Positions 34,432 to 61,807 of a DNA stretch of 64,000 bases are shown here, piece by piece (the stretch's first letter is position 1; every line of letters begins with the position of its first letter). The stretch comes from a virus. The position numbers and the translations under genes are program-made. The stretch covers positions 1-64,000 of IMG/VR virus record IMGVR_UViG_3300047445_000457; one strand, written 5' to 3'. The notes under the pieces are model-generated. The model did not search any database, was not told the DNA's origin, and saw nothing but the letters and a program-made list of their open reading frames with translations.

Positions 34432-35436
34432 TTAGGCGGTGACGGCGCTTTCGAGGCGGCACATCCAGGCGTCATTCAGGATGACGGCGGATTGCATGGT
34501 CTTGAAGCCGATGAAACCGCGCTGGGCCAGCGGATCGGCCGAGCTCGGCTTAGGATTGACCACCATCGGGGTCAGCGCGAACATGCCTTTCAGGGCCACG
34601 ATGCCGTAGGCGTTCTGGGCGATGTACAGGGTGCTGTACACGTCCGCGTTGGCGCCGCCGGTGGCCGAGGTCATCGCGCCCTTGGCACCGCCCGCGTTCA
34701 GGAACGGCTCGAAGATCGTGGACGACAGGTAGCGCACGTCCTCCACCTTGCCGATCTCGTTCTCGTACGGGGTCAGCGAGCCGTATTTCTCGACCGGCAC
34801 GAACACCGATTTGCCATCCGCGCCCAGCATGTTGCGGATGTCCGATTCCTGGTCCGGGTGGATCAGGCCGATGAACGATTTCGCCACCGCCTCGGTGCCG
34901 TAGGCCGGGGTCGAGCGCAGCACCTTGGTGATCTGCTCGGCGTTCTGGCGTTTCAGCGCCTTCGTCACCTTGCGCTGGGCGGTCAGCGAGATCGCCGTGT
35001 TCACCGCGTTGCGGCTGGCGCCGTTCGCGTAAATCACGTTGGTGCCGGCGCGCAGGATGCCGTTGCGCATGCGCTCGACCATCTGCGCGGCCTGCTCGCC
35101 CAGCAGCTCGACGGCCTCGTTGAGGACGTTATCCTCGTGGGTGTCCAGAACGATGTCCGAAATCTGGATCAGGCCGCCGTACTGCGTCAGCAGGCAGGGC
35201 ACGTCCGTCGCGGTCATCTGCTGGGCGCCTGGGGTCACGCCTTCCGCCAGCGCGGTCGGGGTGGTGTCCAATGCGTTGTAGCGGCGGAACACGATGGTCT
35301 TGCTGTTGTTGGCCGGCAGTGCCTTCGACTGGCCGAATTTTTCGAGAACCATGAAGGGAATGGCCCTCTTCAAGAGTTCCTTTTCTGCATACGCGGCAGT
35401 GCGCGGGCTGATATCGCCGTAGTTGGTAGCGCTCAT
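34432..35436 (-). CDS. Major capsid protein (N4-gp56 family)
   Basis: 334 aa; AAGGATACCCA before ATG. Hallmarks of the N4 gp56-type HK97-fold capsid: a start of the form AYAEKELLKRAIPFMVLEKF, the loop region with TALAEGVTPGAQQMT, YGGLIQISDIVLDTHED, and C-terminal ALTPMVVNPKPSS...GFIGFKTMQSAVILND. Assembles the icosahedral head with the scaffold encoded just upstream. Length normal for the family. Confidence 0.88.
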   Translation of the reverse strand: MSATNYGDISPRTAAYAEKELLKRAIPFMVLEKFGQSKALPANNSKTIVFRRYNALDTTPTALAEGVTPGAQQMTATDVPCLLTQYGGLIQISDIVLDTHEDNVLNEAVELLGEQAAQMVERMRNGILRAGTNVIYANGASRNAVNTAISLTAQRKVTKALKRQNAEQITKVLRSTPAYGTEAVAKSFIGLIHPDQESDIRNMLGADGKSVFVPVEKYGSLTPYENEIGKVEDVRYLSSTIFEPFLNAGGAKGAMTSATGGANADVYSTLYIAQNAYGIVALKGMFALTPMVVNPKPSSADPLAQRGFIGFKTMQSAVILNDAWMCRLESAVTA

Positions 35437-36760: not shown

Positions 36761-37076
36761 CCGGGTGCTCTTGGTTTGTGATCGGTTCCCCGAACAGGTC
36801 GGCTTGCCGGGTCGCCTCTGCGGCGTCCTGCTCTAGCTGGTAAAGCGACTTGGAGCGGTCGATGACGGTGTAGCGCACGACGCCCTTCTGGCGCAGGTCG
36901 CGCAGCACGCGGTCCGCAGACGCCGGCGCACAGCCTCCCTCCACCATGCCGTCGACATGGCGGCGCAGGTCGTCGGCGTGGAACGTGCGGCCTGCACGCT
37001 GGCGGCAATAGAGCAGGATCGCATCGGCAATCCGCGCCGACGTCGCTACCAGGTGGGCGGTATTCGGGTGGGTCAT
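36753..37076 (-). CDS. Small winged-helix DNA-binding protein
   Basis: 107 aa; ATGA overlap with the methyltransferase upstream. Pattern of a winged helix: ARIADAILLYCRQRAGRTF, then DLRRHVDGMVEGGCAPASAD and VLRDLRQKGVVRYTVID. Probably a regulator tied to the two methyltransferase genes; the operon ends right after it at a terminator. Target unknown. Confidence 0.65.
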   Translation of the reverse strand: MTHPNTAHLVATSARIADAILLYCRQRAGRTFHADDLRRHVDGMVEGGCAPASADRVLRDLRQKGVVRYTVIDRSKSLYQLEQDAAEATRQADLFGEPITNQEHPAR

Positions 37077-38389
37077 GCCTGCGCCTCCTTGAACAGGTCC
37101 AGTTGCGGCACCTCGGGCGGCGCCTGCCGGGCCACTTCGAGCACGCGCGCATGTTCGTGGGCGATGCGGCGCTGCGCGATCCCGATGTACTCGGGCGACA
37201 GTTCCGAGCCGATGAAGGCAAAGCCCTCGCGCATGCAGGCCTTGCCGGTGCTGCCCGATCCCGTGAACGGGTCGTAGACGGTGCCGCCGGGCGGCGTCAC
37301 CAGGCGCACCAGGTAGGCCATCAGGTCGGTGGGCTTGACGGTCGGGTGGAAATTCTGGCTGCTCTTGTCCGTGCCCTCGGCCTGGAACGAGCCGGGGTTC
37401 TGGGTGCCGCTCGACCATAACAGGGGCTTCTTGTCCAGATCCTCGCAGCCTTCGTTGCGGTCGGTGCGGGTCGCCTTCGGGCAGTAGAAGAACCGGGCCG
37501 CGCTGCCGCTGTCGCCCTGAAACGTGCTGCCTGCTTCGTCAACGTTGCCGGCGAAGGCGCCGTAGCTGTTGCGGAACTTGTCGGCCTTGCGTGTATGAAC
37601 CGGCGCCGCCGCCCCGGCATTGGCCGGGAACAGGGCGATCACTTCGGCGCTGCCGTCGTGGATCAGGTTGGCGGGCCAGCGTCCTTGCGCCGCACTGCCG
37701 CCTGGGCGCATGCTGGTCGCGCCAGTGTCGTCGGCTGAGCGCGTGCCGGCGTGGCCACGGTCGCCGGAACAGTTGCGCGCATAATCGTGATCCGTCACGC
37801 CAATTCGGCAAGCGTCGATGTTGAGTGCCCCGGTTCCGTAGGCGAGCAGGTTCGCAGAGACGGTGCCGACGAGCGCCTTGCGGGCCATCACCACCGGCTC
37901 ATGGGAAGGTTTCAGGGCGGTGCCCCAGCCCTCCCAGCGTGCCGCGTCATCACCCTGCAGGTCGTACTTGGCCACGTTGCGCGACTTGGGCATGCCTGAT
38001 CCGTAAACCCACATGAGCTGGTCGCGGATTTCAAAGCCCGCGTCCTCGATCGCGCAGGCCATGCGGTGGTAGGTGCGGCTCCCCGAGAACGCCAGCAGGT
38101 GCCCGCCCGGCTTCAGGATGCGCAGCGCTTCGGCCCACAGCTCGACGCTGAAGGCAATCTCGCCGCCATCCCATTTCATGCCCATGAAGCCGGTGCCGAT
38201 CCTCGCGCGCCCGTACGGGGTATCGAGGTTGACGGAGGCTTCCCCGCTGCCTCCCTTCTTCCCGGTCGTCAGGTGGTAGGGCGGATCGGTCACGATGGCA
38301 TCCACCGAGGCGTCCGGCATCGCGCGCATCACCTCGATGCAGTCGCCCAGGTGCAGCGTGTACGGCAGGTCGGTCTGCGGGTCGCTCAT
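37073..38389 (-). CDS. DNA N4/N6 methyltransferase (DPPY type)
   Basis: 438 aa. Catalytic motif IV is DPPYHLTT near residue 35, and the SAM-binding FxGxG appears late (DPFTGSGSTGKA), so the order is that of beta-class enzymes. HPTVKP before it is the usual beta-class helper motif. Modifies A-N6 or C-N4 in a specific sequence; which one cannot be read. No restriction endonuclease is adjacent, so the likely job is protection of phage DNA from host restriction. Overlaps the C5 methyltransferase by 4 bases. Confidence 0.88.
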   Translation of the reverse strand: MSDPQTDLPYTLHLGDCIEVMRAMPDASVDAIVTDPPYHLTTGKKGGSGEASVNLDTPYGRARIGTGFMGMKWDGGEIAFSVELWAEALRILKPGGHLLAFSGSRTYHRMACAIEDAGFEIRDQLMWVYGSGMPKSRNVAKYDLQGDDAARWEGWGTALKPSHEPVVMARKALVGTVSANLLAYGTGALNIDACRIGVTDHDYARNCSGDRGHAGTRSADDTGATSMRPGGSAAQGRWPANLIHDGSAEVIALFPANAGAAAPVHTRKADKFRNSYGAFAGNVDEAGSTFQGDSGSAARFFYCPKATRTDRNEGCEDLDKKPLLWSSGTQNPGSFQAEGTDKSSQNFHPTVKPTDLMAYLVRLVTPPGGTVYDPFTGSGSTGKACMREGFAFIGSELSPEYIGIAQRRIAHEHARVLEVARQAPPEVPQLDLFKEAQA

Positions 38390-40407
38390 GCCACCGCCAG
38401 GTCTTCACAAAGAACAAGACCGGCGCGTGGCCGGTCTTGGGTGTCTGCTGCGGGTGCCGGCATCGCCAGCACCGCCTCTATCCGCTCCCCTATCCAGCGC
38501 ATGTTGTTCACGCACATGGAATTGCCGAGCGCCTTGTAGCGCGGCCCGTCCGCCGCCGGCTTGCCCCGGTAGGTAATCAGGGTGTAGTCGTCGGGAAAGG
38601 CCTGCAGGCGTTCGCACTCGCGCGGGGTCAGGCGGCGCACCGCCATGCCGACCTGCGCGAATTGCTTCGGGTTCGTGCTTTCAAGTGTCGGGTGCAGGTC
38701 CCCGTGCCCAAATCCGCCGTGCGGCCCGTTGAACCGGCGCGGATCGTCAAAGCAGGCCGCTGCAACCACCTGGCTGCGCGTGACGTTGCCCGTGACGCAT
38801 ACGGCAGGAACCGCCGTCGACCCGTTGTTCTGCGCCTGTAGGGTCGGGGTGAAGTCGTCGGTGACGAAGATTCCGCCGGCCGCTTCGGATTGCCCCGGCT
38901 TGAACGCGAGGACGCCGTGAGCAATCGCGGGTATGCCCTGCCCCGGCTTGCCGCCACCAGTGGACAGCGCGCCCGTGCGGCTGCCGTCGCCGCCTTCCAG
39001 CCGCAACTCGCCGCGGCTGTTTTCCGCGAACGATACGGCGAACGGCTCGCCAATGCAGTTGTGCAGCCGGAACGTGGTGCCCTCATGGGTATAGGTCTTG
39101 GCCTCGTTCGCACTGATCGGGTCGGCCACCACGCCGTCCCCGGTGAAGATGGTCGGCGCGAGGATCAGCGTGTCCTGGTCGCCCTTGTCGGCATCTGCGG
39201 ACAGCGGCGGAGCCAGCTCGGACGGCGCGCCATCCTTGCCGCGGGTGTAGTGCGAGGCCTTGAAGCTGACCGCGATCTGCCCGCCGCCATTCGCATGACT
39301 GCCGCTGTAGCCCATGGCGCGCAGGGTCGGCGCGATCTCCACGCTGGCGTCAGCGCCGTGGTCCTTGCATGAGAAGGCCACCGCCTGCACCTCCGCGCGC
39401 GCCTCCAGCGTGTAGGCGATGGCTTCCTGCACGCCCACGCCGTCCGGGCCGCTGGTCGGGTTCTCGCGCAGCGCCCCGGCCTGGATCGCGTAGCTGATCG
39501 GTGCCAGCACATGCGGCCTGTCGCCGCCTGTCGCCGCGCGCAGGGCAACGGACAGGACATGCGGCGTGTTGTTCGGGCTGACTCCGTGCCCGCCCGACTG
39601 CAAGGCGTGTACCAGGTCGCCCGTGGACACCATGTTGCGGAAGTCAGCAGCTACAGGCTGGAGGTGCCCAGCTTGGGCATGGTCGACGTCGCAACCGCCG
39701 TCAGTGCTGCGTAGAGTGCCGGTGGCAGGATCTTGCCCCGCTTGTCGGCTCGGCGGAGTATGCCGCTGCACGCCTTCGAGCTCAAAAAGTACCTGGATGG
39801 GATCGAACCCCTCTCTAGAACTTGCGACAACGAAACAACGGCGGCGACGTTGGGCCACTCCGAAATATTGGGCGTCCGTGATCCGCCATGCGACCGCCCT
39901 TTCGGGTCCAAGCACACAACCAGCGTTTGCCCATTTGCCCCCTGGCGGGACGAGCGCATCATCTTCGCCGGCAAGTGCTCCCAAAAAGCACCCGAAGGCG
40001 TTGTCTTTAGTGCTGGTGACGCCGGGGACGTTTTCCCAGACGACGATGGCAGCGGGTTCTCCGCGAACAGCCCGAGTTGCATCAATTGCATTGGCAAGAT
40101 CCACAAAAGAGAGGGACAACTGCCCGCGCGCGTCATCCAGCGACTTGCGCAGGCCCGCGACCGAGAATGCCTGGCACGGCGTGCCGCCGACCAGCACATC
40201 CGGCGCAGCAACCTGGCCCGCGCGCACCATGGAGGCAATCTTCGTCATGTCGCCCAGGTTGGGCACGCCGGGGTAGTGGTGGGCGAGGACCGCCGCCGGG
40301 AAGGCCTCGATCTCCGCCAGCCACGCGGCGCGCCACCCGAGCGGATGCCATGCCACGCTGGCGGCCTCGATGCCGCTGCACACGCTGCCGAAGGTAAGAT
40401 CGCTCAT
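38386..40407 (-). CDS. DNA cytosine-5 methyltransferase with long target-recognition region
   Basis: 673 aa. All main C5 motifs present: I (FGSVCSGIEA, about 6), IV (GGTPCQAFS with catalytic Cys near 78), VI (WENVPGV), VIII (QRRRR, about 210), IX (RRLTPRECERLQAFPDDY, about 610) and X (YKALGNSMCVNNM). Between VIII and IX is an unusually long region of about 390 residues built of loose repeats of the form TL-x-x-x-x-G...V (TGTLRSTDGG, APTLRAMGYSG, TPTLQAQNNGS). ATGA overlap with the upstream regulator. Orphan methyltransferase, likely anti-restriction. Confidence 0.9.
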   Translation of the reverse strand: MSDLTFGSVCSGIEAASVAWHPLGWRAAWLAEIEAFPAAVLAHHYPGVPNLGDMTKIASMVRAGQVAAPDVLVGGTPCQAFSVAGLRKSLDDARGQLSLSFVDLANAIDATRAVRGEPAAIVVWENVPGVTSTKDNAFGCFLGALAGEDDALVPPGGKWANAGCVLGPERAVAWRITDAQYFGVAQRRRRCFVVASSREGFDPIQVLFELEGVQRHTPPSRQAGQDPATGTLRSTDGGCDVDHAQAGHLQPVAADFRNMVSTGDLVHALQSGGHGVSPNNTPHVLSVALRAATGGDRPHVLAPISYAIQAGALRENPTSGPDGVGVQEAIAYTLEARAEVQAVAFSCKDHGADASVEIAPTLRAMGYSGSHANGGGQIAVSFKASHYTRGKDGAPSELAPPLSADADKGDQDTLILAPTIFTGDGVVADPISANEAKTYTHEGTTFRLHNCIGEPFAVSFAENSRGELRLEGGDGSRTGALSTGGGKPGQGIPAIAHGVLAFKPGQSEAAGGIFVTDDFTPTLQAQNNGSTAVPAVCVTGNVTRSQVVAAACFDDPRRFNGPHGGFGHGDLHPTLESTNPKQFAQVGMAVRRLTPRECERLQAFPDDYTLITYRGKPAADGPRYKALGNSMCVNNMRWIGERIEAVLAMPAPAADTQDRPRAGLVLCEDLAVA

Positions 40408-41682: not shown

Positions 41683-41880
41683 TCAGGCCAATACCGTCTG
41701 GCTCGCAGCGGCCAGGCAGGCACGCGCACGGCGCACCTTCCACGCCACATATCCGCGTTCAACCATTTCCGCGTCGGAGATCACCACGTTGATCGCGTGG
41801 ACCTCGCCGCGTACGAGGCGGCGCATGTAATACCAGGTGCAGCCGCTGCGGTGCTCCTTGGTGTTCAGTACGCACTTCAT
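41683..41880 (-). CDS. Small basic hypothetical protein (65 aa)
   Basis: ATGA overlap with the portal stop. Contains Cys near the start (KCVLNTKEHRSGCTWYYMR) and a basic helix (VAWKVRRARACLAAA). Not recognised; coupled translation suggests it is made with portal. Confidence 0.55.
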   Translation of the reverse strand: MKCVLNTKEHRSGCTWYYMRRLVRGEVHAINVVISDAEMVERGYVAWKVRRARACLAAASQTVLA

Positions 41881-44213
41881 GCTTGCGGGTCCCCATCCAT
41901 ACGCGCCGTCTCGATGCCATGCTCCTGTCCGACGCCAGCCCCGACGACACCACCCTGCGGATCGCGGCCGGCGGTCGGCGGCTCGGGAGGCTGCACGGAT
42001 TGTTCGGGCGCGATACCGCTACCTGGTGCGGCTGGTGCGGCTGGTGCGGCTGGTGCGGCTGGTGCGATCGGCACGCCGGTTGGTTCGGGTCCGCCCGCCG
42101 GGGCATCCTTCGGCGTGCGGTCGATGTAGCCAGCCGACAGCAGCACCGCATCACCTGCCGCCGCCACTGCGCCGCTCGATGCCGCCACGCCACCCGCTTG
42201 CATGCCCGCGTAGGCAGCGTCCACGTTGGTCTTGGTGGCGATGGCCTGCAGGCGCTCGACGTCGGCAGCCAGGCGCGAAACCTCGGCCTCGGTCTTCTTG
42301 ACCGCCAGTTGCGCGTTCTCCATCTGGAGCTGCTGCATTTGCTGGGCCATTGCGGCGGCCTGCTTCGCCTGGTCGGTGTTCTGTTCGGCCTGGACTTCCT
42401 CCTCCGTCTTGATGATCGAGGACAGGTCGTGCGCTTCCGCGCGCTGGCGTAGCAATTCCTCGCGCTTGATGTAGGGCGCGTCCTCGGGTGCGAGGGTGGT
42501 GGCGAACTGGTCGAGTTGCTGGGCGCGCAGTTCCTTCGCCATCAGCGATGCCGCCCCGCGCGCCTTGATGTTGAAGTCGCCCTTGATGCTGTTGTTCGGG
42601 TTGAACTGCATGTTCCACTTGTACAAAGACTCCACGAACGTCCTCGTCACCGCGTCGTAGGCCGTCAGCAGGTCCTTCATCACGATGGAAGCGCTGGCCA
42701 GCAGCATGGACATGCCGGACGCCGTGCCGGCCGCGCCCGTGGTCGCGTTTTCGCCCTGCATGTACCTGGGGATCGCGGTCACGTCGTCGGCGTTCTTCTT
42801 GAACATTTCGACCACCGGCATCAGGTATTCGAGGCCGTTCGGGATGTTCAGGACGCGCACCGCAGGCGCCCCCGGATCCTGCCCGTTGCGCGCCCAGATT
42901 TTGAAGGGGTGCATGTCATCCGCCCTCTCGTTCGGGCCGAGCAAAGCCATGTTGACCTCGAACTGCGGTCCCGCAGTGAGCGCGCCGTTATCGAGGACCA
43001 TGCGGGTCGCCGCGTTGATCATGATCTGGTCGTCGCGCATGACCGAGGGGAAGCCATCCGCGAAGATGCTGGTCTCGTCCTTGTCCACGTAGTACAGGTG
43101 ATAGGGCCAGGTCACGCCGTTGATCGGCTGGAGTGCGACCTTGATGACGTCACCCGATGGCAGGAGCCACACGTTGCCGAAAAAGGTTTCGTGCATCCGG
43201 GCTGGCGGGACCTGGACGCCGGCGGCGGCCAACAGTTCGCCGTCCAGCCATCCCCAGCGCTCCAAGACCTCGTAGGAGCCGTCGTCCTTCTGCTGCGCGC
43301 CGGCACGCTCGCCAATGCTGCGGATTTCGTTGTCGAAGTAGCGGGACGTCTGCGCTCCCTTCGGATTGGCCAGGATGTGGTCGCGGATCAGCTGACCCTT
43401 GAAAGACTTCTTCTTGGCCAGGCTCGACAGCTTGGCGCGGGTCATCAGGTGCCGCTCGTAGACATAGCGGCATTCGTCCAGCGAGGTGGCCGACATATCG
43501 GGATACCACCGCCACACGGGCACCTGATCCACGAAGGGCACCACGTAGGTCTCCGTCTTCATGACCCATTGGCCCTGCTCGATCACGAACTTGGACCGGC
43601 TCTTGCGCTCCACCAGCGGCGCTTTCAAGATCCCGGTGCCGTACAGGTGGCCCGAGTGCAGCACGCGGCGCGCGACGCCAGCGTAGTCCGCCTCCGCGAG
43701 CTGGTCGTCAATCACCTGCACCATGCCCTTCGCGGCCTGCGCTACCAGCTTCTTGACCGCCGCATCCACTTCCTGCGGGTTGGGCTGGCGTGCGAGGGCT
43801 TGCTGCAGGGCTTGCACGATCTGGGCCTTGGTCGCGCGGTCGACGCTCGGCACCGGGGTCGGGTCCGCCGTCCAGGTGCGCTCGGTGCCGTTCGGGAAAA
43901 GCAGATCGGCCACGCGCGCATCGACCGTTTTCACTTTCACACGGGTAGCGCGGACGAATGCCTTGGACCTGTTCTTGCCGATCAGGGCCAGGACCTCGGG
44001 ATCGTAGATGCCACGGTACTGGCGCAGATCGCGCAGCCAGCGCTGCTCGGTGTCCTGCCTCGCGTTTTCCGCCTGGGCGAACTCCGCCAGCAGCACGGCC
44101 CCAAGGGAGTCGAGCTGGGTGTAAGCGGCGCTGTCGTCGCGCTCCATCCCCTCGGCGGCTGCCCGCACGTATTCCTGCTCCGCCTGTTGCGGTGCCTGGT
44201 CGTTTTGCGTCAT
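41877..44213 (-). CDS. Portal (head-to-tail connecting) protein
   Basis: 778 aa from the ATG at 44213, chosen because AATTACGTC directly precedes it and the longer reading upstream overlaps the terminase stop. Large podovirus portal pattern: acidic N-terminal helix, LLFPNGTERTWTADPTPV, FGNVWLLPSGDVIKVALQ, ADGFPSVMRDDQIMINAATR, and a long Gln/Ala-rich coiled coil at about 640-700 followed by a PAAPAAP tail encoded by five 9-bp repeats. Forms the dodecameric vertex for DNA passage. Immediately follows the large terminase. Confidence 0.85.
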   Translation of the reverse strand: MTQNDQAPQQAEQEYVRAAAEGMERDDSAAYTQLDSLGAVLLAEFAQAENARQDTEQRWLRDLRQYRGIYDPEVLALIGKNRSKAFVRATRVKVKTVDARVADLLFPNGTERTWTADPTPVPSVDRATKAQIVQALQQALARQPNPQEVDAAVKKLVAQAAKGMVQVIDDQLAEADYAGVARRVLHSGHLYGTGILKAPLVERKSRSKFVIEQGQWVMKTETYVVPFVDQVPVWRWYPDMSATSLDECRYVYERHLMTRAKLSSLAKKKSFKGQLIRDHILANPKGAQTSRYFDNEIRSIGERAGAQQKDDGSYEVLERWGWLDGELLAAAGVQVPPARMHETFFGNVWLLPSGDVIKVALQPINGVTWPYHLYYVDKDETSIFADGFPSVMRDDQIMINAATRMVLDNGALTAGPQFEVNMALLGPNERADDMHPFKIWARNGQDPGAPAVRVLNIPNGLEYLMPVVEMFKKNADDVTAIPRYMQGENATTGAAGTASGMSMLLASASIVMKDLLTAYDAVTRTFVESLYKWNMQFNPNNSIKGDFNIKARGAASLMAKELRAQQLDQFATTLAPEDAPYIKREELLRQRAEAHDLSSIIKTEEEVQAEQNTDQAKQAAAMAQQMQQLQMENAQLAVKKTEAEVSRLAADVERLQAIATKTNVDAAYAGMQAGGVAASSGAVAAAGDAVLLSAGYIDRTPKDAPAGGPEPTGVPIAPAAPAAPAAPAAPGSGIAPEQSVQPPEPPTAGRDPQGGVVGAGVGQEHGIETARMDGDPQA
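42023..42066. repeat. 9-bp tandem repeats in the portal gene tail
   Basis: About five CTGGTGCGG units in frame, giving repeated Pro-Ala-Ala in the portal C-terminal tail; length is probably variable between relatives. Confidence 0.8.
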
Positions 44214-44232: not shown

Positions 44233-45783
44233 TCAGTAGCCGGCGCTGCTCGGGGCGACGCGGGAGGATGCCGGGCCGCGTTCGTCGCGCAGGGCACGCG
44301 GGACGACTGGCTCAGCGAAGGTCATGGCCAGCGCGTCGGCGCCGTCAGGGCTGCGCACCTGGCGTTTCTTCATGTCGTCCTTCGACTCGATCAGCCTGGA
44401 GCCGTTGGAGCTGTACTTGTAGCTGGGTGCGGACAGGTCCGCGATCAGGGCCGGATCGTTCGGCAAGCGGTTCGGCGCGTCCTCGATCCACTCCTTCATC
44501 CTGAACCAGCACTCCGCGCGCTTGTTGTAATAGCGTTCCGGGTCGGCGGCGCGCACGGCGCTGTTGACGCCAATGACCGGAATATTCAGTTCCTTCAAGC
44601 GGTCCACGATGCCCGAGCCGATGCCGATCTTGTCCACGAACAGCGCGTCCGGCTGGTACTCGCGCCAGTATTCGGCCAGCAGCCCGGCGACCTGCATCGG
44701 TCCCTTTTTGTTGTGGTACTCGATGCGGTAGGCCGTGCGGCCGTGCCGGAACACGACGGCGGTGCGGTCGTCCCCGTATTCCGCAGGGTCGCAGCCGATG
44801 ACGAAGGCGCCGCTACGCTCGCGGTAGTCGGCATTGACCGCCGCCATGACAGAGGTTGGCGAAATCAGCGGGTCCGTGGTCGCACTGCGGAATGCCAGGC
44901 TCGGTGTAGCCGGATATTCCTGGTCGAACAGCCATTCAAAGCCCTGCCCGTAGGTTTGCACCTTGTTGGCCCGCCACGCCATCTGCGCGAGGTCGAGCTG
45001 GTAGGTGTCCATGTAAAGCTGGTCGTCAGCCGACAGGATGAAACCCGGCTTGGCTACCGACCTGTATTCGTCCTGCCAGAACCAGGGCACAAAAATGGCG
45101 ATGTACTCGCCAATGCCCGCCTCCGCGTCCTGCCACATCGTGTGGAACTTGTTGCCCAAGCCGTTCGCGGTGGACTCGATCACGATCTCGGTGCCTGGAT
45201 TGTCCGAGATCGTATTGCCGAGGCCCGCCAGGTGAAACTCGGCGTTGTCCCAGAAACCGAATTCCGATGCGTGCAGCAATTGGGCCGTGTTCGAGCGTCC
45301 CACGTCCTTGCTGCCGGCGGTGGCCAGCTTGTAGCCACCATCCAGGCGGCCGAAAATCAGTTCCTTGGCGTTGGTCGCGCTGGTCGAAGGCGCGAAAGGA
45401 TTGTGTTCGTGGTAGCGCTTGACCATGCGGAACAGGTTGTCCGTGGCCTTCTGTTCGTGGGCGACGATAAAAGCGCTGCGGCCCGGCGTGGTCGATGCCT
45501 TGCAATAGAAGCGCGCACCTATATAGGTCGACGCGCCTTGCTGCCGTCCCTTGAGGATGAGCACGCGGACCTTGCCGGTGCGCTGTAGCTGGTCCTCGAT
45601 TTGGGCGTGTATGTGACGCTGTGCGCGGTTGAAGCGCAGCGGAACGAGCCGGCCGTTCTTGTCCAACACATACATGCAGGTTTCGCAGTGAAGCGCGACG
45701 TCGGCCATCAACGCGGCCAGCGTGCGGTCGATGTCTACCTGGTCAGCCAATTCGATCCCGCACGCGCCTGATGACGTCATCAA
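44233..45783 (-). CDS. Terminase large subunit
   Basis: 516 aa. ATPase: Walker A-like KGRQQGAST (about 78-86), Walker B region LLHASEFGFW, coupling VIESTANGLGNKFHTMW. Nuclease: VIGCDPAEYGDDRTAVVF with first Asp, VDKIGIGSGIVDRL, and GADALAM near the C-terminus. Pumps DNA into the prohead and cuts concatemers. Start at ATGATGACG overlaps the small subunit by 41 bases. Confidence 0.92.
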   Translation of the reverse strand: MMTSSGACGIELADQVDIDRTLAALMADVALHCETCMYVLDKNGRLVPLRFNRAQRHIHAQIEDQLQRTGKVRVLILKGRQQGASTYIGARFYCKASTTPGRSAFIVAHEQKATDNLFRMVKRYHEHNPFAPSTSATNAKELIFGRLDGGYKLATAGSKDVGRSNTAQLLHASEFGFWDNAEFHLAGLGNTISDNPGTEIVIESTANGLGNKFHTMWQDAEAGIGEYIAIFVPWFWQDEYRSVAKPGFILSADDQLYMDTYQLDLAQMAWRANKVQTYGQGFEWLFDQEYPATPSLAFRSATTDPLISPTSVMAAVNADYRERSGAFVIGCDPAEYGDDRTAVVFRHGRTAYRIEYHNKKGPMQVAGLLAEYWREYQPDALFVDKIGIGSGIVDRLKELNIPVIGVNSAVRAADPERYYNKRAECWFRMKEWIEDAPNRLPNDPALIADLSAPSYKYSSNGSRLIESKDDMKKRQVRSPDGADALAMTFAEPVVPRALRDERGPASSRVAPSSAGY

Positions 45784-50002: not shown

Positions 50003-50749
50003 TTACACCTGGGGCGGATCCACCTCATTGCCCGCATCGGCGGCGAGCTGGCGGGCGTAGCGCAGCGACACCGCAGGCAGCAAGGCGTCACCGGCAGCAG
50101 CCCGTTCCAGCACCTTGGCGACCCATGCGCGCTGGTCGCCTGGCTGGTCGCCGCTGCGCAGGATGCCCGAAGCGCCCAGCTCCTTCAGCATCCTGGCGGC
50201 GGCCTCACGCGAGGTGAACGCCTCGCCAGGTGCCGGCAGTGCGATATGCGCCTCGGGAATCGGCTCCCACGCGCCGCGCGCCATCTGCCGCTTGAGCGCC
50301 GCCAGCCAGCGCTCGCGCACCGACCCGTAAGCCTCCTGCATCAATTCCCGCCGCAACCCCGACGCCGCCCAATACACGGCCGGATGCGTCCACTCCCCCA
50401 TTTCGCCCTTGCCGCGTGCCTCGAGGCCCGCCACCGCTTCCTGATACGCGGCGATCGGGTCGACCTCGGGCTGGCACAGCGCGAGGAATTCCCCCCAGGT
50501 GGGCGGGAATTTCAGCCGCTCGCACGCAGCCAGGCCTCGCCGCAACTGCCCGCGCGTGATCCCGTTCGCCCTGATCCGTTCCAACCAGGTGCGCTTCATG
50601 TTCTCGATACCGGTGTCGACCCCGTTCTCGACATGCCCGCTGCGGTAGGCGTCAAGGAACTTGTTGCCGAACATGCCGTGCAACTCCCCGAACAGCGAGT
50701 CGATCCCGGCGTCAGTTGAGGTCGATGATGGTGGGGTCGTCACGCGCAT
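50003..50749 (-). CDS. Lambda P-like replication protein
   Basis: 248 aa; GGAGG 6 bases before ATG, overlapping the O-like gene by 38 bases. Signature segments of the P family: SLFGELHGMFGNKFLDAYRS, RTWLERIRANGITRGQLRRG, FPPTWGEFLALCQPEVDPIA and EWTHPAVYWAA. P proteins bring the host replicative helicase to the phage origin. Presence with an O-like partner indicates theta-type lytic replication. Confidence 0.85.
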   Translation of the reverse strand: MRVTTPPSSTSTDAGIDSLFGELHGMFGNKFLDAYRSGHVENGVDTGIENMKRTWLERIRANGITRGQLRRGLAACERLKFPPTWGEFLALCQPEVDPIAAYQEAVAGLEARGKGEMGEWTHPAVYWAASGLRRELMQEAYGSVRERWLAALKRQMARGAWEPIPEAHIALPAPGEAFTSREAAARMLKELGASGILRSGDQPGDQRAWVAKVLERAAAGDALLPAVSLRYARQLAADAGNEVDPPQV

Positions 50750-51737
50750 GATTGCCTCCGAGTCCGATGGATGCCGCCGCCGCTTTCCGCGAAGCGTCGC
50801 GCACGGCTGCCGCATTGGGTGAAGCGCGCAGCGGTGGCCGCACGGCGCCGCTGACCGCGATCGCCTGGCTCTCCGCCGCCCAGCGCTTGAGGACGCCAAT
50901 CACGTAGCCCACGCTGACCGCCTCGCCTGGCTTGCTGCGCTTGGCCTCTTCGCACGCGGCCCTGACAGTCTCCGGCGTGATGCCCTGCTCTGCCAGCACG
51001 ATCAGGTGGGGCTGGCTCGGGTTCGCGTTGATGCCGTACGGACGCATTGCGGCTGACAACTGCGCGGCGCTCACGCTCCCCCCCACCCCGTCTGGCGATT
51101 GCGTTGCTGGCGGCGGTGGTGGGTCTCCTGCTGCTGCTGTTGCTATTGCTGTTCCTGTTGCTGTTCCTGATTCGAGCAAGTCTTTCGGCAAGCCTTTTCC
51201 CGAAGCGTTCGGGGAAGGCTTAGGGGAAGGCTTACGGGGAGTCGCCGCGGAAGGGTCCGGGGTAGGCTCTGGCGGGGGCTTCGGCATCAGCTTCCCTCCC
51301 GTCACCTCGTCAAAGGCGTCCACGAAGGCTGGGCCGATCTCGGCCAGCGCGGCGCGGATTTCCACCAGCGCACTGCGTTTCAGCTCGCACTCGGGCAGCA
51401 GGTCGATCTCGACGCGCCAGTGCTTGACCACGTTGGGCGACTCGGGCTTGTTGTGCTTGATCGCATTCGGCAGCCAGATCAGCCTCGCGCGGAAATCGGC
51501 CTTCGCCATGCCGAGGGTTTCCAGTTCATGGAAGGCGCCCGTGAAAGCGTCCATCTCCCAATTCAGTTCCTCGGCCATCGCGGCGCGGCCGGCGCGGTAC
51601 AGGCCTGGGATCGGTCCCGTGTGCGGCCCGGTCAAGAGGAAGAACCACAGTGCCTGCCCGGATGGCATGAGCGGGGTCAGCGCGCGGAAAGCGTCATCGG
51701 ACCAGGTGCGTACTTCGATTTTTCGGTAGCGTGTCAT
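50712..51737 (-). CDS. O-like replication initiator
   Basis: 341 aa from MTRYRKIEV at 51737. N-terminal winged-helix region like phage replication proteins (TWSDDAFRALTPLMPSGQAL, FFLLTGPHTGPIPGLYRAGR), a long low-complexity Pro/Ser/Lys linker (about 155-240), and a C-terminal helical part (PETVRAACEEAKRSKPGEAV). Lambda O has the same order, with origin repeats often in the linker-coding DNA; a short GCTGTTGCTATTG-type repeat tract is visible at about 51130-51170. Confidence 0.75.
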   Translation of the reverse strand: MTRYRKIEVRTWSDDAFRALTPLMPSGQALWFFLLTGPHTGPIPGLYRAGRAAMAEELNWEMDAFTGAFHELETLGMAKADFRARLIWLPNAIKHNKPESPNVVKHWRVEIDLLPECELKRSALVEIRAALAEIGPAFVDAFDEVTGGKLMPKPPPEPTPDPSAATPRKPSPKPSPNASGKGLPKDLLESGTATGTAIATAAAGDPPPPPATQSPDGVGGSVSAAQLSAAMRPYGINANPSQPHLIVLAEQGITPETVRAACEEAKRSKPGEAVSVGYVIGVLKRWAAESQAIAVSGAVRPPLRASPNAAAVRDASRKAAAASIGLGGNHARDDPTIIDLN

Positions 51738-51803
51738 TTCGGGCTCAGCGTCGATAGTCTCTCGGTGTGCGGGCAGATCCATGGCAGGTCCGCGCCGCTC
51801 TTG

Positions 51804-55523: not shown

Positions 55524-55575
55524 GATACTTTGCAATACTTGCCCACAAATCACAGAAAAATTCTTTTCCGCGGTC

Positions 55576-55581
55576 TATAAT
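55576..55581 (+). promoter_or_regulatory. Consensus -10 (TATAAT) for the repressor gene
   Basis: A perfect TATAAT stands about 38 bases before the repressor ATG. The matching -35 position (CAGAAA) is poor, as for a maintenance promoter that needs help from a bound regulator. Confidence 0.55.
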
Positions 55582-55618
55582 CCAGCGCACGATGCTTGAT
55601 GTTTTTCTGGGAAATCTT

Positions 55619-56047
55619 ATGATGACTAAATCTACTGAACAACGCTTAGCAGCCCGAAAGGCGTTGGCAGAGCGGTGTACATGGGCACGTAAGCGACTAA
55701 GAATTTCACTTATGGAAGTAGCTCGACGTGCCGGCGTAGCGGAGAGCGTCATCGGCAACGCCGAAGGCGGGCGAAACGAGACGATTCGCAGAATTACCGA
55801 GGTCGCACGCGCGCTAGAGGTGAACCCTTACTGGCTGGCGACCGGGGAGGGTGCCTACGATGATCCAGTGGAGCAGGATGCGCTGCCGCTACCTGAACAG
55901 TTCAGGGACCTTCCCAGGAACGAAATCGTCATGGCCATGGAGTGGTTATCACTCTGGCGTGGGGCCGACCCACTGACACGCGGCCTGATTGAGAGCACCT
56001 TTGCCGTGGCCGGCCGAAGGGACCAGCCAGCGCAACGCTACGCATAG
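55619..56047 (+). CDS. XRE-family phage repressor
   Basis: 142 aa from ATGATGACT. Cro/C1-type helix-turn-helix in residues 15-70 (RLRISLMEVARRAGVAESVI then NAEGGRNETIRRITEVARAL, EVNPYWLATGEGA). The C-terminal part is short and has no LexA-type Ser/Lys peptidase, so induction would not follow simple RecA-driven cleavage. Lies between two opposed early operons with similar dyads on both sides. An alternative start at 55591 would be nearly leaderless. Confidence 0.82.
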   Translation: MMTKSTEQRLAARKALAERCTWARKRLRISLMEVARRAGVAESVIGNAEGGRNETIRRITEVARALEVNPYWLATGEGAYDDPVEQDALPLPEQFRDLPRNEIVMAMEWLSLWRGADPLTRGLIESTFAVAGRRDQPAQRYA

Positions 56048-57682: not shown

Positions 57683-58415
57683 CTTCCATTTTCGCTGCTC
57701 ATCGCTGGGCCTCATCATGACCGATCCGCTGTCGATCGAAGAACAGCACGTTACCGACGAAATCGCCGCGATCCAACGGAAGAAGACCCGTACCGACGAG
57801 GAAAAGGCACTGCTGCAGGCAGCGAAAGACAAAAGCCTGTCCGCCGGCGCCAAGACGTTCCTGGAAACGCTGGCCAAGGAATACGTGTACGGCTACCACG
57901 AGGTCGTTTCCACGAAATACATGGAAAAAGGGCTGATCGTGGAAGACCAGGCGATCCAGCTCTATAACTCGGTCTATTTCACCGACTACGTGAAAAACAC
58001 GGTCCGGCTGACGGACGAGCACATCACCGGCGAATGCGACATCATCGTGCCAGGCGTGAAGGGTATCGACATCAAATCCTCCTGGTCGAAACCCACGTTC
58101 CCGGCCACTGCCGAAGTCGGGGCAGACAAACTCTATGAGTGGCAGTGCCGCGGCTATATGAAGCTGTGGAACGTCCCCGAGTGGGAGGTGGCCTACTGCC
58201 TGGTCAACACGCCGGACGAGCTGATCCGGTATGAGCAGCCCGATCTGCACTACATGGACGATATTGACGAGGCGCTGCGGGTGACAGTCGTGCGCTACCA
58301 GCGCGACCTGGAACTGGAGGCCAAGATCGCCACCAAGGTGGAAGCGGCCCGCCGCTACCTGGACGAAGCGGTGGCCAGGATCTACCGGCAGCACAACATG
58401 CCAGCAGCGGCGTAG
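57675..58415 (+). CDS. YqaJ/lambda-exonuclease-type nuclease
   Basis: 246 aa. PD-(D/E)XK core: conserved Glu in MEKGLIVEDQAIQLYNS, then GECDIIVPGVKGIDIKSSWS giving D...D-x-K, and the helper helix YEWQCRGYMKLWN with Gln and Tyr typical of YqaJ. 5'-3' resection of double-stranded ends for single-strand annealing is the family role. Its 3' end is duplicated 1.15 kb downstream. Confidence 0.85.
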   Translation: MNNFHFRCSSLGLIMTDPLSIEEQHVTDEIAAIQRKKTRTDEEKALLQAAKDKSLSAGAKTFLETLAKEYVYGYHEVVSTKYMEKGLIVEDQAIQLYNSVYFTDYVKNTVRLTDEHITGECDIIVPGVKGIDIKSSWSKPTFPATAEVGADKLYEWQCRGYMKLWNVPEWEVAYCLVNTPDELIRYEQPDLHYMDDIDEALRVTVVRYQRDLELEAKIATKVEAARRYLDEAVARIYRQHNMPAAA

Positions 58416-58427
58416 GGCGTCGCCCTG

Positions 58428-58531
58428 CGGAAGCGTGGCTTCCGGGGGGGCGGAAATTCATTCCCAAATTTTCGCACTGCTTTTCCAGTTTTCGGAAAAG
58501 CGTTTCCGCAGGGGCGGAAATGGCGCTTCCG
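58428..58531. repeat. CGGAAR...YTTCCG dyad cluster, downstream side of the RepL-like gene
   Basis: Dyads at 58428-58444, 58493-58508 and 58515-58531 (CGGAA...TTCCG) plus an overlapping TTTTCC/GGAAAA dyad at 58481-58499 and a half site at 58451. G-runs follow as in the other cluster at 59265-59353. Probably protein-binding sites; hairpins could also end transcription between convergent genes. Confidence 0.75.
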
Positions 58532-59176: not shown

Positions 59177-59264
59177 CTTTTCGGAAAGGGGGCACACAGA
59201 ACTTGCATGAGTATGCCGAGAATTGGCGTTAACTGCAATCAGGGATTGTTGCAATGGCCAGGTG

Positions 59265-59353
59265 CGGAAGCCGGGCTTCCGGGGGTGCGGAAATAGCTTG
59301 TTTCCGAGGGTGAAGAAACAAGCTGTTTCCGGGGGTGCGGAAGCCCTGCTTCC
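59265..59353. repeat. Four evenly spaced CGGAAR...YTTCCG dyads upstream of the RepL-like gene
   Basis: CGGAAGCCGGGCTTCCG (59265-59281), CGGAAA..TTTCCG (59288-59306), GAAACAAGCTGTTTC (59315-59329) and GGAAGCCCTGCTTCC (59339-59353). Centres are 24-25 bases apart, with GGGGGTG or GAGGGTG between. Regular phasing points to cooperative protein binding, either an operator or an origin. Confidence 0.8.
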
Positions 59354-59667
59354 TGGGGGTGGGGTGTAAGTGATTGATTTATCGAAAGTTCTTTTGCGGC
59401 TCTCTTGATCTCGGGCCGCGTGTCGCGCCGACTTCTCGATTCTTTGCAAGCTTTTAACTAACGCGCGCTGCGCGCTTGTTGCCGCACCGGTTTGCGCAGC
59501 AAACCGGCGCGGTGGGTGGAAGCGGTGGCCAGTATCTATCGGCAGAACAACATGATGCGCGTGGCATGACTCGGCGATTGTCCCGGCGGGTAGTTTCCGG
59601 CTATCATCGAATGGTTCACCGCCAAGTTAGCTACAGGATGATAAAGCAATCCACAAAGGAGACGCTT
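59354..59667 (+). other. Gap before the TrfA-like gene
   Basis: About 310 bases without a credible complete gene. Holds inverted repeats GCGCGCTGCGCGC and CCGGTTTGCGCAGCAAACCGG (59463-59508) and the exonuclease fragment. No clear promoter hexamers seen. Confidence 0.55.
59519..59569 (+). pseudogene. Duplicated 3' fragment of the exonuclease gene
   Basis: EAVASIYRQNNM then MRVA and stop; matches the exonuclease end EAVARIYRQHNM. The DNA match covers 59519-59554 versus 58365-58400 with few differences. No start or upstream homologue is present, so it is a remnant from duplication or recombination. Confidence 0.8.
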
Positions 59668-60729
59668 ATGCAGCGCACCGCCGCTGCATCCATGCGCAAG
59701 TACACGCCGGTCCAGTTAGCGTTCTGGCCGGACGAGCGCAGGGCGATCGCCAACGAACTGGCGCGCTGTGCGCTGTTCCGCTGCGGCTCCACGCGCAAGC
59801 CGCGCCAGCAATTCGACAACCATAGCCTGTTTGTGCTCGGCAGCGGCAAAGTCACCTATACCGGCGAGGAACTGCGCAGCCTCGACGAGGATTTGTTCAT
59901 GGCATTGGCCCATGCGGCGCGCCGGATGTCGGTCGACTGCCTGACAGTCAAACTGAGCAACGCCCAAATCTGCAAGCTAACCGGACGGCACCAGTCGCAG
60001 GTTTATTACAACGAGATTTTCAGGTCGATCCAGCGGATGCGGGGCGGGACCATCACCGTGTTTTCCGCGCGCCTGACGAAGGCGCTGGCCTGCGAGAAGG
60101 CACGGGAGGAGGGCGCTGCACCGGAAGTGCTGTACCGCCTGTTCGCGGAACTGGCAGAGTTCGAGCGCCGCGAAGCGCTGAAACTGCTGACGCCGAACGA
60201 CAAGATAACCGGCGTCATGATGTCCCTGATCGAAGGCGACCCGGTGTTCACCAACGTAGGCACGATAGTCGACAATATCCCGCAAGGCAATCTGCAATGG
60301 GAAATCATGCTCAACAAGAAACTGGTCATGCTTTTTGCAGAGGCCTACCTGACGCATATTGATTTTGAAGCGCGCAAGGAGCTGTCTCCGGGTGCGCGCC
60401 GCCTGCAGTCTTATTTTTCCAGCCATCGCAATCCAAACGACGTACTCGTCAGCTCCCTGGCGCAGTACGTCGGCCTTGAACTGAGTTCACGCGAAGAAGT
60501 GCGGACGATACAGCGCTACCTGGATGAGCTGGTGAAGGTCGGGATCCTGGAAACCGGCGTGATCGTGCCGGCGGCCCGGAAGGGCAGCAAGCTGGTACAA
60601 GTAACACGCCCTACTACTAAAAACGACACACAAGAGGGACAAAACGACCCACCAGCAAAGTCGGCGGAACTAAAAACCACACACAACGAGCTAAAATCGA
60701 ACACGCTTTTACTTAAAATGACACCGTGA
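59668..60729 (+). CDS. TrfA-like plasmid replication initiator
   Basis: 353 aa from MQRTAAASM at 59668 with AAGGAG 8 bases upstream. TrfA signatures: LARCALFRCGSTRKPRQQFD, VTYTGEELRSLDEDLFMAL, TGRHQSQVYYNEIFRSIQRM, LVMLFAEAYLTHIDFEARKE and LSPGARRLQSYFSSHRNP. Initiators of this family bind iterons, melt the origin and recruit DnaB. The last 35 codons overlap the iteron array, so the acidic-basic tail (TKNDTQEGQNDPPAKS) is repeat-derived. Suggests maintenance as a plasmid. Confidence 0.85.
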   Translation: MQRTAAASMRKYTPVQLAFWPDERRAIANELARCALFRCGSTRKPRQQFDNHSLFVLGSGKVTYTGEELRSLDEDLFMALAHAARRMSVDCLTVKLSNAQICKLTGRHQSQVYYNEIFRSIQRMRGGTITVFSARLTKALACEKAREEGAAPEVLYRLFAELAEFERREALKLLTPNDKITGVMMSLIEGDPVFTNVGTIVDNIPQGNLQWEIMLNKKLVMLFAEAYLTHIDFEARKELSPGARRLQSYFSSHRNPNDVLVSSLAQYVGLELSSREEVRTIQRYLDELVKVGILETGVIVPAARKGSKLVQVTRPTTKNDTQEGQNDPPAKSAELKTTHNELKSNTLLLKMTP

Positions 60730-60747
60730 TTGCTAAAAACGACACCA
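60617..60747 (+). repeat. Iteron array (CTAAAAACGACACC) over the 3' end of the initiator gene
   Basis: Six imperfect units whose cores begin at about 60621, 60642, 60674, 60694, 60716 and 60737: mostly 21 bases apart (one gap of 32). Examples: CTAAAAACGACACA, CTAAAAACCACACA and CTAAAAACGACACC. A reversed copy (CTAAAAATGACCC) lies at about 61005-61018. Two-turn spacing is typical of plasmid iterons. Confidence 0.8.
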
Positions 60748-61065
60748 GGCACATCTGGAAATAAACTTTACAATCAAAGAGTTACGTAATCCATCCACAG
60801 CGTTAACCGCTTTTAACCACTTTAACCACTTAACGCCAACAAACAATTCTAGGATTTATCACAATTTCCTAACTAACAAGTAAATGGGTGAATTGTTAGA
60901 AAGATGGATGCCACAGCGAAACTAATACGCGAAAAGTTGTCAATAAGACGCTACTAACAACAACTTTCAGTGGCAAATTGCAGGTAACGCAAGCTGTAAA
61001 GCGTGGGTCATTTTTAGCGCCAAAATTCTAGGTTCGCGGTTAAAACAATTCTACAATTCGCAGCC

Positions 61066-61079
61066 CTCACATTCGTGAG
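61066..61079. promoter_or_regulatory. Putative repressor operator in the origin region
   Basis: CTCACATTCGTGAG, a 5+5 dyad with 4-base centre, like the sites at 55.51 and 56.44 kb. Confidence 0.6.
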
Positions 61080-61319
61080 CCATCCAAGCGGCTCTACTGC
61101 CAACGACTGGCAACTTCCTTCCTCCGAGCACGCTATTCCGTAACCGAATTTCTCATCGCCCGTCCACGCTGTTTAAGAGGAGTGCGTTCTAAAAAAAAAG
61201 GGATTTTGTTAAAAAAATTTTGTTCAAACATAACTATTTGACATAATGTAAGTTATGCGCGGTCTCTGAACCTTGCTTTTCGGAAGCATGTTGTACAAAT
61301 GTTTTTTTAACTTGTGCTA

Positions 61320-61349
61320 TTGCTAAATCGCAAAAGTGACTGCTAGAAT
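61320..61349 (+). promoter_or_regulatory. Candidate promoter of the H-NS-like gene
   Basis: TTGCTA, an 18-base spacer and TAGAAT, about 50 bases before the ATG at 61400. Confidence 0.5.
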
Positions 61350-61399
61350 CACATTTGTGGGGATGAAGACCAACCGAATCAATATCACAGGAAACGCAG

Positions 61400-61807
61400 A
61401 TGACTAGCAATGTCGCGCGCCGTGGGGAGATCAACGAGTTGCGCAAGCAGCTTAAGGTCGATCTTTTCAACCTTGAAAAGAAATTTAAGGAAGAGTCCGT
61501 CGCGCTGGAGAAGAAGTGTCAGGCAGACATTTCCGCTCTCGAGCGTGAAATCAAGGAATGCGAAGCTCAGGAAGTGCGGGCGGCGCGAGAACAGATTCAA
61601 CAAATCATCGCGGCTACCGGGCTTGACCCTGCCGCCATCTTTGCAGGCCTGGCCGGGGCACGCGGCACCCAGGAAGCCCGCACCACCCGCAAACCAATGA
61701 GACCATCCACGGTCCAGCATACCGGCCCGAAAGGCCAAATCTGGAACGGGCGTGGTCGCACACCACAGTGGTTCAAGGAACGCCAAGTCGCTTCCAATGG
61801 CCACTAA
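61400..61807 (+). CDS. H-NS-like nucleoid protein
   Basis: 135 aa. N-terminal two thirds is a charged coiled coil (VDLFNLEKKFKEESVALEKK) for oligomerisation; the C-terminus holds the H-NS DNA-binding loop in the form GQIWNGRGRTPQWFKE (family core W-x-GRGR-x-P-x-W). Plasmid and phage H-NS proteins silence AT-rich DNA and lower the cost of carriage. It sits next to the only long AT-rich tract in the window. Confidence 0.88.
   Translation: MTSNVARRGEINELRKQLKVDLFNLEKKFKEESVALEKKCQADISALEREIKECEAQEVRAAREQIQQIIAATGLDPAAIFAGLAGARGTQEARTTRKPMRPSTVQHTGPKGQIWNGRGRTPQWFKERQVASNGH

Follow-up and report, generated by a model that had tools for sequence, protein, structure and literature searches.

A TrfA-type replicon with a conserved predicted origin, and a pBBR1-type replicon beside it, in a probable phage-plasmid

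Why should a phage genome carry the replication initiator of a plasmid? The question is raised by positions 59,668-61,399 of the DNA analyzed here, a stretch of 64,000 nucleotides (the window) that comprises bases 1-64000 of the 70,226-base IMG/VR virus record IMGVR_UViG_3300047445_000457, classed as linear. At this locus a gene for a TrfA-family plasmid initiator is followed by iterons and an AT-rich tract, in a genome that also encodes a phage terminase, a portal and a major head protein (packaging and capsid functions, by PHROG profile matches). The answer that fits best is that the record comes from a temperate phage-plasmid, very probably kept in its host as a plasmid and not in the chromosome, because the packaging genes are combined with a conserved TrfA/origin module under purifying selection and with a second, pBBR1-type replicon. 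Gene calls used for comparisons were made with our own simple caller.

The TrfA initiator and its predicted origin

A reading made earlier from the sequence alone (the sequence-only reading) had named the initiator TrfA-like, and profile searching bears this out: its product matches PF07042 with 62.9 bits (E 3.3e-17), against a curated cut-off of 22. For the two-winged-helix architecture of TrfA we obtained a weak HTH_36 match only, with a poor AlphaFold model, and a search of solved structures returned nothing useful. Matches by tblastn were found in 311 of 72,556 plasmid records, the best being to a conjugative plasmid of Herbaspirillum huttiense (NZ_CP103873; 43.6% identity by tblastn, 46% in alignment), while the next-best stand at ~29% or lower among the 30 matches listed. 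Membership of IncP-1 was set aside, the best match outside Herbaspirillum being ~29% among those listed. In the Oxalobacteraceae genome set of Herbaspirillum sp. RV1423, a TrfA match at 1e-10 occurs in 12 of 392 genomes, one of the 12 close. None of 50,697 phage records was matched by tblastn, whether with this TrfA at 1e-5 or with that of a third TrfA phage record (G002, also L089) at E 10. A small unnamed PHROG family, phrog_26900, matches the protein at 1.2e-12; therefore distant phage relatives exist. The protein is 67% identical to the TrfA of G002 and 85% identical to that of a sister phage contig (L004, also G001), and the comparison with the sister gives a dN/dS of 0.166 over codons 1-310, which indicates purifying selection.

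Six iterons at about 21-base spacing had been reported for this locus. Six copies are present and conserved (starts at 60617, 60638, 60670, 60691, 60712 and 60733), but the spacing is non-uniform (21/32/21/21/21), and only two of the six copies are exact, the other four being degenerate. A lag-21 self-identity as high as that of the array was reached by 9 of 5000 dinucleotide shuffles; for the best lag in the range 5-59 the figure is 61 of 5000. The iteron 13-mer, with up to three mismatches allowed, has 12 occurrences in the window (6.9 ± 2.6 expected), 4 of them inside the array. By itself the array is just moderately unusual, and the shuffles are only moderately convincing. The case for the iterons rests on their being conserved in the sister phage as well as in three other TrfA replicons.

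The AT-rich tract holds up as well (GC 0.37-0.44 across about 60,625-61,500, versus about 0.6 around it); of the DnaA-box-like words reported with it, a single degenerate box with two mismatches stands, CCATCCACA, and the tract shows no TTATCCACA-like word even when one mismatch is allowed. The GTTAAC/TTTAACC run that follows the box is the likely unwinding element. Iterons and element align in the sister contig, and in G002 and two Herbaspirillum replicons (NZ_CP103873 and contig 45 of Herbaspirillum sp. RV1423) iterons lie at the same place with a related motif, so that the layout trfA, iterons, DnaA box, GTTAAC/TTTAACC element is common to five TrfA replicons. The pattern DnaA box-GTTAAC-TTTAAC-TTTAACC, derived from these same five origins, occurs once per TrfA record (5/5), always adjoining trfA; it occurs in 0 of 10 other records, one of which duplicates part of the relative G013 and another of which (G003) is a sister-phage piece ending short of trfA, and 0 times in 20.9 Mb of local shuffles. 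This five-replicon pattern is the main evidence that the iterons and element next to trfA form an origin. Chance iterons are ruled out, since the array and the following element recur 3' of trfA in all five replicons. TrfA, iterons and conserved element together make up a plasmid initiator with its origin, of predicted activity.

The pBBR1-type replicon

The sequence-only reading overlooked a second replicon at 58.4-59.5 kb. By tblastn its Rep shows 58.4% identity, across 87% of the query, to the pBBR1 Rep (NC_025015); in alignment the two are 56% identical. This Rep is matched by 192 of 72,556 plasmid records. Upstream of the gene lie palindromes of 15-17 bp with 8-base GGGGGTGC-type spacers at a period of ~25 bp, and TTCCGNGGGTGNNGAA occurs 4 times in the window versus 0.07 expected. 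The same 17+8 layout, which was spotted by eye in these sequences, is found upstream of rep in pBBR1 and in the E. coli plasmid pMB3176_3, with differing palindrome letters. The pBBR1-type assignment is based on this combination of a homologous Rep (56-58%) and 25-bp palindromic repeats upstream of rep.

The replicon forms a 1.15-kb segment between 36-bp direct repeats that differ at 3 positions. The sister phage lacks it, its exonuclease gene continuing straight to trfA; the segment may have been either gained beside the TrfA replicon or lost by the sister. This Rep was found in 1 of 35 records searched (the present one), and no other viral contigs with a pBBR1-type Rep were found. A GC-rich, terminator-like hairpin (59482-59512; 14-nt arms, 3-nt loop) lies between the second replicon and trfA. 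As judged from their genes and repeats, two adjacent plasmid-type replicons accompany lambda-like helicase-loader genes in one phage.

Relatives and mode of maintenance

A giant minus-strand gene at 1-15,495 is open at the left end of the record and encodes at least 5,165 aa; its homologue has 6,796 aa in the relative G004 and is annotated as a PLxRFG domain protein in a Massilia plasmid. The record is a fragment, because its left end falls within this gene, and two scans made to bridge the missing end returned only the query contigs. The absence of an integrase noted by the sequence-only reading holds for the 70,226-bp record (no PF00589 or PF00239 match), and the search for ParA (PF13614) and ParB (PF02195), carried beyond the window, gave no match in the same record; since the record is a fragment, these absences are unproven.

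How are its relatives maintained? A terminase scan confirmed 367 stretches, of which 80 were kept, and 33 records were searched (the present record, L004, L089 and 30 of the 80, taken mostly by length); ten were fetched whole, partly for having ParA, and no rate is to be drawn from those ten. PF07042 occurs in 3 of the 33 (the three TrfA phages), ParA in 9 and Replicase PF03090 in 3 (G006, G017 and G009); ParB was found in 7 of 17 records searched, 6 of them above cut-off. Across about 49.6-69.8 kb the sister is collinear with our record, the two being 72-82% identical in DNA sequence. G002, a circular phage record of 111,592 bp, has an exact terminal repeat of 127 bp; it carries TrfA (accompanied by iterons of its own and by the shared element), ParA, ParB-like proteins, an integrase, terminase, tail J and endolysin, and has no structural module in common with our phage.

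Relatives with ParA-ParB and other initiators do have the terminase/portal/capsid module of our phage, and they carry these genes in the stretch bounded by the regulators and the giant gene, which holds TrfA here. The order is ParA, ParB, Replicase (PF03090 + PriCT_1) in G006 and G017, and ParA, ParB, unnamed 318-aa-type protein in G013, G014 and the Massilia violaceinigra plasmid NZ_CP024609, which is circular and 87,120 bp long. The 318-aa-type protein (L116 555-1511, minus strand; L124 8235-9197, minus strand; NZ_CP024609 65348-66289) also adjoins ParB-ParA on an Undibacterium plasmid; it matches no Pfam family above cut-off and is possibly a new initiator family. Relatives are circular in isolates: an exact terminal repeat of 95 bp is present in G013, which over the 40,000 of 70,830 bases compared is 100% identical to the 70,830-bp contig C27 from one of the genomes of the Oxalobacteraceae set. 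In that set a terminase match at 1e-60 occurs in 5 of 392 genomes. The best reading is an Oxalobacteraceae-associated lineage whose members have different plasmid replicons, our phage having two.

Could the phage instead be capable of integration as well as plasmid replication, its integrase gene lying in the missing segment and the replicon serving a circular stage? The Massilia plasmid, G006, G013 and G017 have both ParA and tyrosine integrases, and G002 combines TrfA, ParA and an integrase. We consider this unlikely for our phage: no integrase was found in it or its sister, and an integrase on an element of this kind can have dimer resolution as its role instead. Slightly less probable again is that TrfA and its iterons are a lytic origin and not a means of plasmid maintenance, lysogeny then depending on integration through an integrase encoded in the unseen part. 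The incompleteness of the record and the tyrosine integrases in 18 of the 33 records speak for this idea; against it, relatives have ParA-ParB and other plasmid initiators in the same stretch, the nearest TrfA homologue among named plasmids sits on a conjugative plasmid, and separate helicase-loader genes exist, with homologues in G004, where TrfA was not found. These last are the O/P-like lytic genes of the sequence-only reading, of which P stands (PF06992, phrog_109) while the O position holds a DnaD-like helicase loader (phrog_1701); a search for lambda-type iterons in the O-position gene found just two-copy repeats. Least probable, and very unlikely, is that misassembly, or the chance formation of a functionless cointegrate, attached plasmid sequence to the phage: although this is a metagenome contig with a direct-repeat-flanked segment that its sister lacks, repeats differing at 3 positions are unlike the identical repeats of an assembly error, and while misassembly of the pBBR1-type segment is possible, misassembly or a passing plasmid gene is excluded for TrfA because TrfA and its origin occupy the same place in an independent, collinear contig and the gene is under purifying selection.

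Maintenance as a phage-plasmid thus remains the preferred reading, supported by the packaging genes, the conserved TrfA/origin, the second replicon and the circular relatives with ParA-ParB. Several points weigh against it. The TrfA structure model is unusable (mean pLDDT 54.4) and the DnaA box degenerate; the second replicon is known from one metagenome contig only; the record is linear and cut inside the giant gene; neither it, incomplete as it is, nor its sister has a ParA or ParB match; the relatives examined closely were selected in part for ParA; and with integrases so frequent among the records searched, the lineage may integrate.

For the phage-plasmid we infer the following mechanism. 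TrfA would bind the iterons at and beyond the 3' end of its gene and, with host DnaA, help to open the adjacent GTTAAC/TTTAACC element; it would then load the host replisome, so that the prophage is kept as a plasmid, while the lambda-like helicase-loader genes at 50-52 kb would serve lytic growth. The pBBR1-type replicon would have been added next to the TrfA replicon or lost from the sister, with some division of labour between the two, and a partition system, if any, would lie in the unsequenced end. More tentatively, it is quite conceivable that one Oxalobacteraceae phage lineage has a fixed maintenance slot in which the replicon is exchanged (ColE2-type Replicase, an undescribed winged-helix-type initiator, TrfA), our phage being caught with RK2-like and pBBR1-like replicons side by side, perhaps widening its host range or escaping incompatibility with resident plasmids.

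Other genes were also noted (Table 1). An H-NS-like protein had been reported as well; its matches to PF00816 (23.9 bits versus a Pfam cut-off of 25.6) and NCBIfam (far under cut-off) both fall short, and the identity is plausible on its C-terminal motif. An SSB gene lies at 68.7 kb of the record. Two consecutive minus-strand genes at 37073-40407 of the window resemble DNA methyltransferases, as judged from translation alone, and a weak HicB-like antitoxin match (L003 7993-8571, record 65993-66571; PF15919, 0.0083, under cut-off) has no evident HicA partner.

Table 1. Features of the two replicons and of the phage genome (window coordinates)
Feature	Position	Strand	Evidence or remark
TrfA-family plasmid replication initiator, 353 aa	59668..60729	+	PF07042
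Six iterons, core CTAAAAACGACAC	60617..60753	+	first five start within trfA 3' end
Degenerate DnaA box (CCATCCACA), then GTTAAC-TTTTAACC-TTTAACC	60791..60827	+	likely unwinding element
Remaining AT-rich intergenic tract	60830..61399		GC 0.37-0.44
Second plasmid Rep, pBBR1 type, 213 aa	58535..59176	-	tblastn to pBBR1 NC_025015
25-bp palindromic repeats (17-bp palindrome + GGGGGTGC-type spacer)	59263..59367		upstream of second Rep
More palindromic repeat copies	58426..58530		downstream of second Rep
Left 36-bp direct repeat, end of exonuclease gene	58365..58400		92% to right copy
Right 36-bp direct repeat	59519..59554		flanks second-replicon segment
Terminase large subunit	44233..45783	-	phrog_2 1.2e-37
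Portal / head-tail adaptor	41877..44213	-	phrog_332 2.4e-41, phrog_1216 1.1e-10; 67% to Massilia violaceinigra plasmid
Major head protein	34432..35436	-	phrog_1357 3.5e-56
CI-like transcriptional repressor	55547..56047	+	phrog_8 1.2e-11, phrog_2328 4.7e-10
Lambda P-like helicase loader	50003..50749	-	PF06992 3.4e-7, phrog_109 7.8e-23
O-position protein, DnaD-like helicase loader	50712..51782	-	phrog_1701 1.2e-14
H-NS-like protein (plausible), C-terminal motif IWNGRGRTPQW	61400..61807	+	PF00816 3.6e-5, NCBIfam NF008193 5.3e-7

Comparison with known systems

It is instructive to set these replicons beside their nearest known counterparts. The two Herbaspirillum replicons, whose TrfA is 46-50% identical to that of our phage, likewise have iterons directly 3' of trfA, followed by a DnaA box and GTTAAC/TTTAACC element, although the iteron sequence differs; unlike our phage, NZ_CP103873 is a conjugative plasmid with ParA-ParB adjoining trfA and no phage structural genes among its annotated genes. 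The TrfA-oriV system of RK2/IncP-1, as described in PMC4081077, has the same ingredients (a TrfA-family initiator, iterons, DnaA boxes and a repeat-bearing AT-rich element), and there TrfA binds the iterons and one strand of the AT-rich repeat element. Iterons adjoining such an element are thus held in common with our phage, which in contrast has a single degenerate DnaA box and no DnaA-box cluster, TTTAACC repeats in place of four 13-mers, and no IncP backbone that we noticed. The likeness to pBBR1 lies in the 56% identical Rep and the 25-bp palindromic repeats with GGGGGTGC-type spacers upstream of rep; the differences are that our replicon is a 1.15-kb segment in the genome of a phage, has additional repeats on its downstream side and brings no other plasmid gene with it.

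Among elements that unite phage and plasmid genes, the M. violaceinigra B2 plasmid NZ_CP024609 shares the portal (67%), terminase, capsid and giant-gene module, but has another initiator, ParA-ParB and integrases; it lacks a pBBR1-type Rep, and blastp of called genes found no close TrfA in it. KS14-like Burkholderia phage-plasmids also keep the prophage as a plasmid, as the available part of PMC3091744 reports for KS14; FLC5, of the KS14-like genus, has a RepL-type protein 30-35% identical to our second Rep. This group differs in being P2-like, and for KS14 itself RepB and ParA, and no TrfA, are listed in that part of the source (PMC3091744). In the literature searched, judged by title and start of abstract, we found no publication on a TrfA phage-plasmid. 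Phage-plasmids are therefore known as such, and what would be new is a TrfA type that has a neighbouring pBBR1-type replicon and belongs to a lineage with differing initiators. Differing replicons in one lineage, and two origins of broad-host-range type in one phage, would offer a handle on host choice and on the avoidance of incompatibility, and the same system would give one on the trading of parts between phage-plasmids and conjugative plasmids.
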